From contig OMJT01000188.1 of NCBI GenBank assembly GCA_900299415.1, forward strand, positions 1 through 48,101: a stretch of 48,101 nucleotides of DNA. The letters are read 5' to 3'. The translations under genes and the position numbers were made by a program. Positions within the stretch are counted from its first letter, which is position 1; each line of letters begins with the position of its first letter. This stretch comes from Opitutales bacterium (lineage in GTDB: Bacteria > Verrucomicrobiota > Verrucomicrobiia > Opitutales > Opitutaceae). Positions 40,460 to 46,432 of this stretch are shown here, in pieces. The notes under the pieces were generated by a model. It saw nothing but the letters and a program-made list of their open reading frames with translations, had not been told where the DNA came from and made no database searches.

Positions 40460-41872
40460 ATGATCAAGGTCAGCCTCATCTCCCTCGGATGCGCCAAGAA
40501 TCTCGTGGATAGCGAGATCATGGTCGGTCACCTGCACCAGGCCGGCATGAAGGTCATCCCGGAGGCGGAGAAGGCCGACGTGGTGATCGTCAACACCTGC
40601 TCCTTTATCGATTCCTCCAAGGAGGAGTCGATTGGCCACATCCTCGAGGTGCATCAGAATAAGGGGATGAAAAAGCGCCGCCGCGAGCAGAAGCTCATCG
40701 TCGCCGGCTGCATGGCCCAACGGTTCTCGAAGGACCTCTCCACCTCGCTCGCCGACGAGGTCGACGCCTTCATCGGCCTCGACCAGGTCACGCAGGTCGC
40801 GCCGATCATCGAGCAGATCTACGCCAAGGAGAAGCCCGCCGATGGCCCGGCCAACCTCGTCACGGCCAAGTCCACGTTCATCCCCGATTACGACACGCCT
40901 CGCTTCCGGCTCACCCCGGGGCACCTCGCGTACGTCAAGATTGCCGAGGGCTGCAACCACCCGTGCACCTTTTGCATCATTCCGCAGATCCGTGGCCGGC
41001 ACCGCAGCCGCACCGTCGAGAGCGTGGTCGCCGAAGCCCGCCGCCTCGTCGCCGAGGGCGTGAAGGAGCTCAACCTGATCTCCCAGGACACGACCTTCTT
41101 TGGCATGGATACCTGGGAACAGCGCCCTAACCCGCGCACCCCGGTCGATTCCTCGCGCGGCACCGCCCTCACCACCCTGCTCCGCGAGCTCAACGCCATC
41201 CCCGGCGACTTCTGGATCCGGCTGCTCTACACCCACCCGGCCCACTGGAGCGATGAACTCATCCGCACCATCGCCGAGTGCCCGAAGGTCGCCCGCTACA
41301 TCGACATTCCGCTGCAGCACATCAGCGACCCGATGCTCACCGCGATGCAGCGCGAGACGAGCGGTGACTACATCCGCGACCTGCTCCGCCGCATTCGCGC
41401 TGGCATTCCGGGCATCGCGATCCGCACCACCTTCATCGTCGGCTTCCCCGGCGAGACCGAGGCCGATGTCGACGAACTCGCCCAATTCATCCGCGAGACC
41501 CGTTTCGAGCGCTTGGGCGTGTTCCGCTACTCCCAGGAAGACGGCACCCGCGCCGCGAAGATGGACACTCAAGTTCCCGCCAAGGTGAAGGAGGCCCGTT
41601 GGCACCGGCTGATGGCCCTGCAACGCGAGATCGCCGCCGAAGTCAGCCAGGCCGCGGTGGGACGCTCGCTTCGCGTCCTCGTCGAGGAACCCGGCGTGGC
41701 GCGCGGCGAGGCCGACGCACCCGACATCGACGGCCGAGTCTACGTCTCAGACCGCCTGCCCGTCGGCGCCTTCGCCGAAGTGAAGATCACCGGGTTCCAC
41801 GACTACGACCTACTGGCACTGCCCGCGGGCCATCAGCCCCGAGAGTACAAGGTCGCGCGCCAGGCGCAGTAA
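40460..41872 (+). CDS. rimO: Ribosomal protein uS12 methylthiotransferase
   Basis: The 470-residue radical-SAM enzyme adds a methylthio group to an Asp of ribosomal protein S12. The N-terminal UPF0004 domain has cluster-binding cysteines in ISLGCAKNLVDSE, NTCSFIDSS and VAGCMAQRF. The radical-SAM motif is CNHPCTFCIIPQIRGRHRSR. The C-terminal TRAM domain ends with VKITGFHDYDLLA. The SLGCAKNLVDSE start distinguishes RimO from MiaB. It starts just after the peptide-gene terminator. Confidence 0.96.
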   Translation: MIKVSLISLGCAKNLVDSEIMVGHLHQAGMKVIPEAEKADVVIVNTCSFIDSSKEESIGHILEVHQNKGMKKRRREQKLIVAGCMAQRFSKDLSTSLADEVDAFIGLDQVTQVAPIIEQIYAKEKPADGPANLVTAKSTFIPDYDTPRFRLTPGHLAYVKIAEGCNHPCTFCIIPQIRGRHRSRTVESVVAEARRLVAEGVKELNLISQDTTFFGMDTWEQRPNPRTPVDSSRGTALTTLLRELNAIPGDFWIRLLYTHPAHWSDELIRTIAECPKVARYIDIPLQHISDPMLTAMQRETSGDYIRDLLRRIRAGIPGIAIRTTFIVGFPGETEADVDELAQFIRETRFERLGVFRYSQEDGTRAAKMDTQVPAKVKEARWHRLMALQREIAAEVSQAAVGRSLRVLVEEPGVARGEADAPDIDGRVYVSDRLPVGAFAEVKITGFHDYDLLALPAGHQPREYKVARQAQ

Positions 41873-41907: not shown

Positions 41908-42687
41908 CTACTTGACCACGTCCACCGGCCCCACCGGCATCGGCACCGCCTTCACCGCCGCGGCCTGTTTGGCCATGTCGACAATGTCTTCGGCTGGAAC
42001 CACCACGATCTGGATCGCGGTGTTGTTCGAGAGATAGGCCAGGGCGATGCCGAGGGGCTTGCCCTTCATGTCGAATACCGGACAGCCCAGGGTTTGGTCG
42101 GTGGTGAGGATCAGCTTCCGGGGGCGCTCGATCATGCCGAGCACGGAGACCACCTGAATGACCGGCGTGCGCTGCATATTCTTCGGCAGGCGGGTCATGT
42201 CGAAATAGGTCCCGAGTACCTCGGCCTTCCCGGCGTCCTCCAGGTTCAAGTAGGGATAAGTCTTGGCCGGACCGGCGCCGGCAAGCGGTGCGATGAAGGC
42301 GAGATCGAGCTCGGCATCCTTCAGGACCACCATGGCCGGAATCTCGGTGTTGTCGGCGAGGCGCAGCTTTACTTCCTTGAACTCCGAATCCGAGTTGTCG
42401 CTGCTGCCGCGCCCGCGGCCCACGCGCGGGTCGATCGCGGTCAGCGAGGTGACGGTGAGACCCGTCGGTGAGATTACGGTGGCATTGACCTCGACCTTCT
42501 GTTCAGCGGACCCCCGGCCGCCCCGGCCGCCCGCACCGCCGTTCACCACCAACTCGACCGACACGATGGCGTCCGCGTTCTTCTTCACGATCTCGCGGCC
42601 GGCCGCGGCCTCGGCCTCGGTCGCGGCGGAAAGGGGCGCCGCGAGAGCGGCGGAGACGAGGGCGGTCAGGAGGACGGTGGCTTTCAT
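41908..42687 (-). CDS. Trypsin-fold protein lacking catalytic His and Ser (pseudo-protease)
   Basis: The 259-residue protein starts MKATVLLTALVSAALAAPLSAA, a signal peptide. The rest aligns by motif with the protease domain of the upstream HtrA-like gene: GLTVTSLTAI replaces the His motif (Thr83 for His), DAELDLAFIAPL keeps Asp128, and QTLGCPVFD replaces GNSGGPLV (Leu200 for Ser). There is no PDZ domain. Short Gly/Arg-rich stretches (GGAGGRGGRGS, VGRGRGSS) occur in loops at about 50-60 and 89-96. Its start overlaps the HtrA-like stop as ATGA. I infer an inactive partner or substrate-binding protein. Confidence 0.8.
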   Translation of the reverse strand: MKATVLLTALVSAALAAPLSAATEAEAAAGREIVKKNADAIVSVELVVNGGAGGRGGRGSAEQKVEVNATVISPTGLTVTSLTAIDPRVGRGRGSSDNSDSEFKEVKLRLADNTEIPAMVVLKDAELDLAFIAPLAGAGPAKTYPYLNLEDAGKAEVLGTYFDMTRLPKNMQRTPVIQVVSVLGMIERPRKLILTTDQTLGCPVFDMKGKPLGIALAYLSNNTAIQIVVVPAEDIVDMAKQAAAVKAVPMPVGPVDVVK

Positions 42688-44774
42688 GGTTTCAGGGGTT
42701 GCTTGAGATTGATCTCGATAAATCCGGTCTCGCCGCGGCGGTAGACGAGCATGACAAGGTGACCCTTGCCCGAGCTCACGACGGCGTTGCGGGCGCGCTG
42801 GAGCTCGGCCACGGTCGCCACTTTCGTGCCGTCGATCTCCATGATCAGGTCGTCCGAGCGCAAGCCGGCGAGGTAGGACCATCCGGCCGAGACCACACTG
42901 GAAACGAGCACGCCAGAAAGGTTGCCGGGCAACTGCAGGCGGACCCGGTCATCGAAAGCGACATCGCGCACCTCATACTCCAGCTTGATATCCTCCCACT
43001 CCGGCATTTCCGCCGACGGGGTTGGCTGGGCCTCGAGCACGATCGCGAGCTCAAGCCGCTTGTTGTTCTCGGCGGTCTCGCGCCAGAGGGAAAATTTGGC
43101 CTCGGTGCCGACGCGGTACTGGCGGATCATGCGAGCAAGCACGTCAGCGTCCTCCTGACGACGCTCGTTCACGTCCTGCCCATCGACAGCGAGAATAACG
43201 TCGCCGACCTTCAGCCCGGCCGCCTCAGCCTTGGTGCCGGGATGCACCCGGGTGACCCGCGCGCCGCCGTCGGCCTTGATGCCGAGCTGGGTCGCAAGTT
43301 TGGGGGTGAGTGGCTGCGAGGAGACGCCGAGCCAGGCGCGGCGCGCCTGCGGGGTGATGTTCTTCGGGCTGGTGAGCCGGAGCTCGACCACTGAGCTGAG
43401 GAGCGCGCCGTCACGCCGGATGCTGGCCAGGACGGTTTTGGTCCCGGTCGTGTCCTCGGGGATAATCTTCTCAGTGATCGCGACGAGATCGGCGACATTG
43501 TTCACCGGCTGGCCGTTCACCCCGACGATGACGTCCTGTACCCGCAGGTCCGGTTCGGCCTGCCCAGCGGCACCGCCGGGTCGGATATTCTGAATCCAGA
43601 CGCCCTTCTTCTCGGGCAGTCGGGCGTCGCGGGCCAGGTCGCGCGTAAGATCGCGCACCACCGCGCCCCAGGCCTTGAACTCCTTGTCGTCGGCTTGGGC
43701 CAGCTCGCGAACATCGAGCTTCACCCTGGCGGACTGCTTTGCCGTGCCGCGGAGGAAATCGATCGCCAGCTCGCTACCAGGGGCCTGCGCAGTCTCGAGG
43801 CGGTAGAAATGGGCCACGGCCTTTTCCTTTTCGCCTTCGATGGTTTTGCCGGCAGCGGCCACGATCACGTCGCCGGCCTTGATGCCGGCCGCCGCGGCGG
43901 GCGAGCCCTCCGCGACGTCGGCGACGACCACACCGCTGGACTGATTGAGAGACTCGAGCTTTTCCTGGACGGTGATGCCGGACCAGCCACGAATGACACG
44001 CTTGTTGCGGATGATCTGGTCAGCCACCTCTCGCGCGAGGTTAGCCGGAATGGCACCGCTGAGGCTGACCACGCCAATCTCATTGATGCCAATGACCTCG
44101 CCCTTGGTGTTGACCAGCGGGCCGCCGCTGTTGCCGCCGTAGATGGTGGCGTCGTGCAGGATCCAGTGGACGAGCGTGCCGACGTTCTCGCCGCGCAGCA
44201 TCATCGGGCCGATGTTCTCGGACATCGTGAGGGTGGGATTAGCAACGATCCCGCGAGTGCTCGACTGCGAGAGGAAGCCGGGACTGCCGAGCGCAAAGAC
44301 GACATTGCCCGGGACGAGCTTGTCGGAATCGCCGAAGTTCGTGACCTGGAGGGGCGCGGCACCCTTCTTGCGCTGGGTGAGGTCGAGCTTGAGCACCGCG
44401 AGGTCGGTCATTGGGTCCTGACCGATGCGGACCGCCTCGATCATCTCGCCGTCGTAGAGGTAGCAACGGTAGTAGTTGGCATCCTCGGCGACGTGGCAAT
44501 TCGTAAGCAGGTAGCCCTCTTGGGAAATGATCACGCCGCTCCCGCCGACCCACGCTTTCGTGAGACGGCCGTCGCGCGGCTGCTCGCGGATCGCCTCGAT
44601 GCGCACGATGGAAGGGAAGACCTTCGCGAGCATGTCAGTATTCTCCGTCATGGCGGCCGACGCGGCCCCACCGGCGGTCACCTGGGCAGCCTCGCGTGTG
44701 CAGGCCGTGACCGAGAGCAGGGATAGGCAGGCGGCGCCGACCGCGGCCGGGACAGGGAGGCGGGGACGATTCAT
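42684..44774 (-). CDS. HtrA/Deg-like serine protease lipoprotein with multiple PDZ domains
   Basis: The 696-residue protein has a lipoprotein signal with Cys25 in LLSVTACTREA. The protease domain carries the triad His94 (LLTNCHVAE), Asp124 (DPMTDLAVL) and Ser216 (GGNSGGPLV). PDZ-like modules follow at about 255-355, 380-490, 495-590 and 610-690, recognised by SPAAAAGIKAGDVIVAA, EPDLRVQDVIVGVNG, AEAAGLKVGDVILAVDG and YLAGLRSDDLIMEIDG. DegP-type enzymes usually have two. It likely acts at a membrane surface in protein quality control. It lies 57 bases after mpl and overlaps the pseudo-protease gene. Confidence 0.92.
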   Translation of the reverse strand: MNRPRLPVPAAVGAACLSLLSVTACTREAAQVTAGGAASAAMTENTDMLAKVFPSIVRIEAIREQPRDGRLTKAWVGGSGVIISQEGYLLTNCHVAEDANYYRCYLYDGEMIEAVRIGQDPMTDLAVLKLDLTQRKKGAAPLQVTNFGDSDKLVPGNVVFALGSPGFLSQSSTRGIVANPTLTMSENIGPMMLRGENVGTLVHWILHDATIYGGNSGGPLVNTKGEVIGINEIGVVSLSGAIPANLAREVADQIIRNKRVIRGWSGITVQEKLESLNQSSGVVVADVAEGSPAAAAGIKAGDVIVAAAGKTIEGEKEKAVAHFYRLETAQAPGSELAIDFLRGTAKQSARVKLDVRELAQADDKEFKAWGAVVRDLTRDLARDARLPEKKGVWIQNIRPGGAAGQAEPDLRVQDVIVGVNGQPVNNVADLVAITEKIIPEDTTGTKTVLASIRRDGALLSSVVELRLTSPKNITPQARRAWLGVSSQPLTPKLATQLGIKADGGARVTRVHPGTKAEAAGLKVGDVILAVDGQDVNERRQEDADVLARMIRQYRVGTEAKFSLWRETAENNKRLELAIVLEAQPTPSAEMPEWEDIKLEYEVRDVAFDDRVRLQLPGNLSGVLVSSVVSAGWSYLAGLRSDDLIMEIDGTKVATVAELQRARNAVVSSGKGHLVMLVYRRGETGFIEINLKQPLKP

Positions 44775-44831: not shown

Positions 44832-46259
44832 TCAGAGACGGCGGGCGGCGACAAATTCCGCGATGATTCCGTCGAAGCTGCCATTGGTAAAGAAGACGAC
44901 CACGCGCGGATCCTTCGGATCTGTTACGGAATTCCCGCGGAGTTCCTGCAGTAAGTGGGCGTTGGTCGGGGCCGTGTAGGCTCGCCGGCCGCGCGCCGCC
45001 AAGGCGGCCAAAACGGCGTCGGGATCGAAGCGCTCGGATTCCGCGAGCTTCTCGGCGCGGTTGACGGCGCCGAGGTAGATCTCGTCGGCCAGCGCGAGCG
45101 CCTCGATGAAAGCAGGCTGCAGCACGCGCGTCCGGGCCGTATTGCTCCGGGGCTCGAACACGGCGGTGAGGCGGCTGCCGGGAAATCGGGACCGAAACGA
45201 CCGCAGGGTCTCCGCCAGCGCCGTGGGATGATGCCCGAAATCCTCGACGACGGTCAGGCCGGGCAGCGCAAGCAGCGTCTCCTGCCGGCGCTTCACGCCA
45301 CGAAACCCGACTAGCGGCGCGAGCAGCGCGGCGCCCGGCGGCGATGCATCAGGCCGCAGGATGAGCGCCACGGCGGCGGCCGCCATCGCGGCGTTGCGTG
45401 CGTTGTAGAGGCCCGGAAGTTTCCAGGTCACCGCTCCCCACGGCTGGCCGCGCCAGAGCAGCCGAAAATTTACGCCGGTGGCATCCTCGCGAAAATCCAC
45501 AATCCGCGCGTCGTTGTCTTCGCCCGTACCGACCTTCCAGACCTGCGTCCAAGCCATCGACCCAAGTGCGCGCAGGTTTTCATCGTCGCCGTTCAGCACC
45601 ACCCAGCCACCCCGTGGCACGATCCGCACGAAATGGCGGAAGGTCCGCTGCACATCGGCGAGGTCGCGAAAGATGTCGGCGTGGTCGAATTCAAGGTTGT
45701 TCAGCACCGCGACGCGCGGCGCGTAGTGGATGAATTTGCTTCGCTTGTCGAAGAACGCGCTGTCGTACTCGTCGCCCTCGATGACAAAAGGATCCGCCGC
45801 CGCGCCGAGATGGTGACCCGTCGGAGGATCGAGCGGCACACCGCCGATCAGGTAGCCGGGGTCGAGACCCGCGCCGCGCAGCAGGAACGCCGCGAGTGAG
45901 GTGGTCGTCGTCTTGCCGTGCGTTCCCGCCACCACGAGGTTGCGCCGGCCCTGCAGCACGTGGTCGTGGAGGAAGGCCGGCAGCGAGGTGAAGGCCAGCG
46001 TCCCCGCGTCGAGCAGCCACTCGACCTCGGGATTGCCGCGCGACATCGCGTTGCCGATGACGACGAGGTCCGGGCCGAGCTTTTCCAAGCGCCCAGCATC
46101 GTAGCCCGCATGGACCGTGATGCCCGCGCCGGCCAGCACGTCGCTCATCGGCGGATAGATCCCCTGGTCCGCCCCAAGCACCTCGTGGCCCGCGGCCCGG
46201 GCCAGCAGCGCGGCGTTGCCCATCGCCGTCCCGCAGATGCCCATGAAATAGATCCGCAT
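44832..46259 (-). CDS. mpl: UDP-N-acetylmuramate:L-alanyl-gamma-D-glutamyl-meso-diaminopimelate ligase
   Basis: The 475-residue enzyme recycles cell-wall tripeptide by joining it to UDP-MurNAc. It starts at MRIYFMGICGTAMGNAALL, the Mpl N terminus (ATG at 46259; the tracked start adds 53 codons). The ATP loop is VAGTHGKTTTTSL, EGDEYDSAFFDKRSKF is the Mpl signature, and FRGVKRRQE and VVEDFGHHPTALAETL follow in the C-domain, with FEPRSNTARTRVLQ. This pattern separates Mpl from MurC. It is the first of three minus-strand genes, mpl, htrA-like and the pseudo-protease. Confidence 0.95.
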   Translation of the reverse strand: MRIYFMGICGTAMGNAALLARAAGHEVLGADQGIYPPMSDVLAGAGITVHAGYDAGRLEKLGPDLVVIGNAMSRGNPEVEWLLDAGTLAFTSLPAFLHDHVLQGRRNLVVAGTHGKTTTTSLAAFLLRGAGLDPGYLIGGVPLDPPTGHHLGAAADPFVIEGDEYDSAFFDKRSKFIHYAPRVAVLNNLEFDHADIFRDLADVQRTFRHFVRIVPRGGWVVLNGDDENLRALGSMAWTQVWKVGTGEDNDARIVDFREDATGVNFRLLWRGQPWGAVTWKLPGLYNARNAAMAAAAVALILRPDASPPGAALLAPLVGFRGVKRRQETLLALPGLTVVEDFGHHPTALAETLRSFRSRFPGSRLTAVFEPRSNTARTRVLQPAFIEALALADEIYLGAVNRAEKLAESERFDPDAVLAALAARGRRAYTAPTNAHLLQELRGNSVTDPKDPRVVVFFTNGSFDGIIAEFVAARRL

Positions 46260-46432
46260 GCCCGACGTAAGTGGGTGCCCCGCCGGGACGTCAGCAAAAA
46301 ATGCGCACCCCGATCTGGCGAAAAAATCCTTCCCCCGGAATAAAGATTGGGATGTCCTCTCCATCCTCGTTCCGGCAGCGCCTCCACGCCCCAAGTGGTC
46401 ACCCCGACGCCCCCGCACATTTAAACTCCCCC

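Follow-up and report, generated by a model that had tools for sequence, protein, structure and literature searches.

Does the HtrA-type protease encoded at this locus work together with a catalytically dead homologue, and if so, in what capacity? The window, that is, the whole stretch of 48,101 nucleotides that was analysed, contains two overlapping genes on its reverse strand, here called P1 and P2, which the preliminary description read as an active HtrA-like lipoprotease and a dead protease-fold partner. The features of P1 are as follows.

42684 to 44774, reverse strand: P1, predicted HtrA/DegP-type serine protease of 696 aa, with a protease domain and four PDZ domains
within 42684 to 44774, reverse strand: putative lipobox VTAC of P1
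44493 to 44495, reverse strand: codon of catalytic His94
44403 to 44405, reverse strand: codon of catalytic Asp124
44127 to 44129, reverse strand: codon AGC of catalytic Ser216, in the motif GGNSGGPL
42699 to 43340, reverse strand: C-terminal PDZ3-PDZ4 module, about residues 479-692, matched by hhalign to the PDZ pair of the second architecture described below

Analysis with Pfam identified a Trypsin_2 domain (94 bits) and four PDZ stretches in P1, in agreement with the four PDZ-like modules reported earlier. The two characters that mark an HtrA/DegP protease, a trypsin-like protease domain with a His-Asp-Ser triad and at least one C-terminal PDZ domain, are both present, the latter as four stretches. 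The triad had been described as intact, and His94, Asp124 and Ser216 are indeed invariant across nine P1 orthologues; it is likewise intact in each of 76 distinct P1 relatives whose sequences span the complete protease domain. With the Do family model TIGR02037, P1 scored 352.2 bits, below the curated cut-off of 416.2, and it is therefore filed as HtrA-type, outside that subfamily model. Judged by its sequence, P1 is an HtrA/DegP-type protease, whose proteolytic activity and oligomeric assembly are predicted. Its dN/dS within the genus is 0.10-0.13. An export signal was recognized by eye at the N-terminus of both P1 and P2. The lipoprotease label holds in part: a lipoprotein signal is plausible in this genus (VTAC, AGC) and in at most some relatives, and was not seen in several more distant relatives.

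The partner P2 shows the following features.

41908 to 42687, reverse strand: P2, putative HtrA-fold pseudo-protease of 259 aa, exported by a predicted signal, without PDZ domain
42687 and 41908, reverse strand: start of the P2 start codon ATG and P2 stop codon, respectively
42684 to 42687, reverse strand: ATGA overlap of the P1 stop and the P2 start
42439 to 42441, reverse strand: codon of Thr83, replacing the catalytic His
42304 to 42306, reverse strand: codon of Asp128, the catalytic Asp that is kept, in the motif KDxDLDLAF
42088 to 42090, reverse strand: codon of Leu200, replacing the catalytic Ser

P2 scored 24.3 bits with Trypsin_2 in Pfam, just under the curated cut-off of 27.6, which distant P2 homologues passed (44.5, 42.4, 32.9 and 28.0 bits). 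The only Trypsin_2 matches in the window's own genome, which is 76% complete, are P1 and P2. When the P2 sequence was searched against PDB chains, only weak, unconvincing matches emerged, and the question was settled by fold comparison. The AlphaFold model of P2, built from 72 homologues, has a mean pLDDT of 89.7 and a pTM of 0.86. The best 50 PDB matches listed for this model are all HtrA-type proteases, including HtrA1, HtrA3, DegP, DegS, DegQ, plant Deg1 and mycobacterial HtrA, with E-values of 8e-12 to 2e-10 for the top matches and the protease domain of MamO (5hm9, 5hma) at ranks 14 and 15. The profile of the P2 family also matched that of the P1 family (E 8e-7). According to the model, P2 has the HtrA protease fold, so that the trypsin-like fold previously proposed from motifs is upheld and no different fold took its place. 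No domain besides the protease fold was found in P2, either with Pfam or in the AlphaFold model.

The substitutions reported at the catalytic positions, Thr83 for His and Leu200 for Ser with Asp128 kept, were confirmed, as was the ATGA overlap at 42687-42684. Conserved loss of the nucleophile across homologues was taken as the mark of a pseudo-protease, and this position was never Ser in 90 distinct P2 homologues (Pro in 35, Leu in 17, Ala in 12, and others). The His position was occupied by His in one of the 90 (L104), which we read as chance because Ser is also absent in that protein. The catalytic Asp is kept in 86 of the 90 and replaced by Asn in four, a figure that is biased by the scan of named genomes, which was seeded by a pattern containing the Asp; among the 35 sequences found without such a pattern it is kept in 33. 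We infer that P2 has no proteolytic activity.

With two of the three catalytic residues gone, P2 might be taken for a pseudogene left to decay after a tandem duplication of an HtrA gene. This is hardly credible in view of its open frame, a within-genus dN/dS of 0.13-0.16 (approximately 0.14), which is close to that of P1, the same loss in 90 homologues and the high-confidence fold. P2 is under purifying selection and is not decaying.

The two genes are also found together in relatives; their absence from all of these would have told against the preliminary description. A P1 relative lies directly upstream of P2 on the same strand in 76 of the 77 named P2 loci with room (79 loci in genome contigs, of which two with P2 starting at the contig edge were left out), and in 72 of those 76 it lies no more than 120 nt from where the P2 match begins. 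According to the record titles, the pair occurs in Verrucomicrobiota (Opitutae, Akkermansiaceae, Verrucomicrobiales and subdivision 3), in Planctomycetota (Phycisphaerae and Planctomycetaceae) and in Candidatus Sumerlaeota. A full-length P1 (over 980 bits, with the next best HtrA at 306) and a clear P2 (over 90 bits) are carried by the same nine of 57 related genomes. The pairwise distances of P1 and P2 are correlated with a Mantel r of 0.93 over 72 pairs, a value reached in none of 2000 permutations; this correlation mainly shows shared vertical descent. The P1 and P2 genes are kept together under selection. No fused P1-P2 protein was present among the open frames of stretches L013-L129. Two P2-like genes have no adjacent P1, namely a divergent one (L021) and an orphan homologue in a Verrucomicrobiales genome (L098:7980-8861), with no HtrA in the 8 kb upstream.

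The surroundings of the pair were also inspected. In the window, P1 is preceded on the same strand by an apparent mpl-like murein ligase gene (44832-46418), and a putative rimO-like gene (40460-41872) is convergent with P2; one or both of these neighbours recur, by blastp, in 28 of the loci examined, all within L013 to L076. A conserved third gene, encoding an apparent lipoprotein with MORN-like repeats, is located directly downstream of P2 in 27 loci of the L077-L129 set (for example L092:8719-10140). Beyond Opitutaceae, the neighbours that recur offered no hint of a function, and several 'families' of such neighbours were rejected as antisense shadows of P1. At one locus (L088:7986-11420), a P2 homologue continues in frame into a long C-terminal extension. 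Inspected by eye, this extension looks like a sugar-dehydrogenase-like protein carrying a cytochrome-like CxxCH motif; the fusion could be an assembly artefact.

One could argue that the linkage is a leftover of origin and that P2 has been repurposed for a ligand or metal function, in the way known for the protease domain of MamO. The conserved features of the P2 family, the acidic motif KDxDLDLAF and an invariant R190, would suit such a role, and MamO has a di-histidine motif on its surface with which it binds metals (PMC4794232). Against this, the list of invariant or nearly invariant P2 residues contains no conserved His, and a linkage that persists across phyla is not easily accounted for as a remnant, which makes repurposing very improbable.

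The main rival to a complex of P2 with P1 is a role in the same envelope-stress pathway without contact, in which P2 would be a free periplasmic chaperone that binds peptides or clients and either delivers substrates to P1 or detects misfolded proteins. A shared pathway suffices for both linkage and co-inheritance; P2 is equipped with an export signal of its own and lacks a PDZ domain, and the orphan P2 homologue has no HtrA in reach. We consider this reading unlikely in light of a second gene arrangement in the same order.

The P1 profile also matched adjacent gene pairs in other Opitutales, ten of which were read (L150-L159). In this second architecture, the first gene encodes an active HtrA with two PDZ domains, and the second a trypsin-like domain in which each of the three catalytic residues is substituted and which precedes two PDZ domains. 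This type was found in 33 of the 57 relatives, in 29 of which an HtrA match adjoins, and in a 195-genome sample of the phylum its strong matches were all confined to the order Opitutales. A model of the dead protein based on ten sequences (pLDDT 78, pTM 0.60) matches whole DegP structures, with a best E-value of 1.7e-26. In profile comparisons with hhalign, its dead domain matched the P2 family with an E-value of 6e-14, which is better than the match of P2 to P1 (8e-7), and its PDZ pair matched PDZ3-4 of P1 with an E-value of 3.8e-27 and 32% identity (alignment A4). Since the PDZ pair matches P1 PDZ3-4 and the dead domain matches P2, both architectures are made of the same parts: four PDZ domains and two protease domains, of which one is live and the other dead. 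By these matches, the second PDZ pair resides on the live protein in the layout of the window and on the dead protein in the second layout.

A tree of the protease domains separates the active ones (P1 and the second-type HtrA) from the dead ones (P2 and the second-type dead domain) by a single branch (88/91). This split fits one origin of the dead subunit, on a tree with long branches and moderate support. The apparent transfer of the PDZ module between the partners is the strongest evidence that both act together. The PDZ pair found on P1 in the first layout is carried by the dead domain in the second, where the model of the dead protein corresponds to an entire DegP, and this swap together with the whole-DegP model argues for a shared assembly and against an unbound P2.

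The number of dead domains also varies. Two P2 genes stand in tandem at two loci (L056 and L095). In three loci from another family (L170, L171 and L172, in G307, G355 and G399), a single P1 with four PDZ domains precedes one dead gene, after which comes a fused gene of approximately 550 aa that comprises two dead-protease domains, giving three dead domains per live one. Three dead domains beside one active protease fit a structural or regulatory dose of dead subunits.

Taken together, we propose, with a probability of about 0.62, that P2 serves the HtrA protease P1 as a dedicated, obligate subunit without catalytic function or as an allosteric regulator. P2 would pack against P1 in the periplasm, where contact would most likely be made by the surfaces through which HtrA protease domains typically oligomerize. 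It might tune the assembly, substrate access or activation of P1 without catalysis, in the manner of MamO acting on MamE. The fold, the conserved residue loss, linkage, co-occurrence, co-inheritance and selection speak for this role, as do the PDZ3-4 swap, the multiplied dead domains and the MamO precedent. Speaking against a bound subunit, linkage and co-inheritance also fit one pathway without contact, there are P2-like genes without an adjacent P1 (L098 and L021), and contact between MamE and MamO went undetected (PMC4794232). The protease and pseudo-protease partnership suggested at the outset is well supported by linkage, co-occurrence, co-inheritance and PDZ-module transfer, while we infer the physical complex and the regulation. 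The wider picture, a mixed HtrA machine of one active and at least one obligate dead subunit, with a PDZ module moved between subunits and a range covering Planctomycetota-Verrucomicrobiota and Candidatus Sumerlaeota, has in our view even odds of being correct.

The effect on P1 could also be negative: as an inhibitor or decoy, P2 would occupy P1 or block it until displaced by a signal. Enzymes can be inhibited by dead homologues, and adjacent overlapping genes allow matched amounts. The sole characterised pair of HtrA and pseudo-HtrA that we found shows activation (PMC4794232), and we regard inhibition as improbable.

HtrA proteases are generally viewed as homo-oligomers under the control of PDZ domains and peptides. 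A dead partner conserved across several phyla would, if true, introduce regulation by a pseudo-enzyme subunit beyond the specialised case of the magnetosome. The two architectures together provide a natural experiment that bears on which of the partners requires the PDZ pair. Pairs of an HtrA and a pseudo-protease are already known from magnetotactic bacteria. No description of the P1/P2 family, of its spread or of the PDZ transfer was found in the open-access papers searched.

Among known systems, P1 shares the protease domain, the triad and PDZ1-2 with DegP/DegQ (TIGR02037) and differs in having two additional PDZ domains and a dead partner; to our knowledge, DegP forms homo-oligomers without a dead partner. 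The MamE/MamO system resembles P1/P2 in combining, in one gene region, an active HtrA protease with a trypsin-fold pseudo-protease whose active site is degenerate (PMC4794232), and the nearest PDB folds to P2 include the protease domain of MamO (5hm9, 5hma). MamE-dependent proteolysis needs the presence of MamO and not its catalytic residues, and the MamO TauE domain was found to be necessary by the same authors, who detected no physical MamE-MamO interaction (PMC4794232). MamO belongs to the magnetosome and keeps His and Asp, with Thr for Ser, whereas P2 lacks both His and Ser; MamO has a TauE transporter domain needed for activation, whereas P2 is a single exported domain. P1/P2 show neither magnetosome gene context nor a TauE domain on the dead partner. 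MamE/MamO is the nearest analogue of P1/P2, and the lack of TauE in P2 is a difference that matters.
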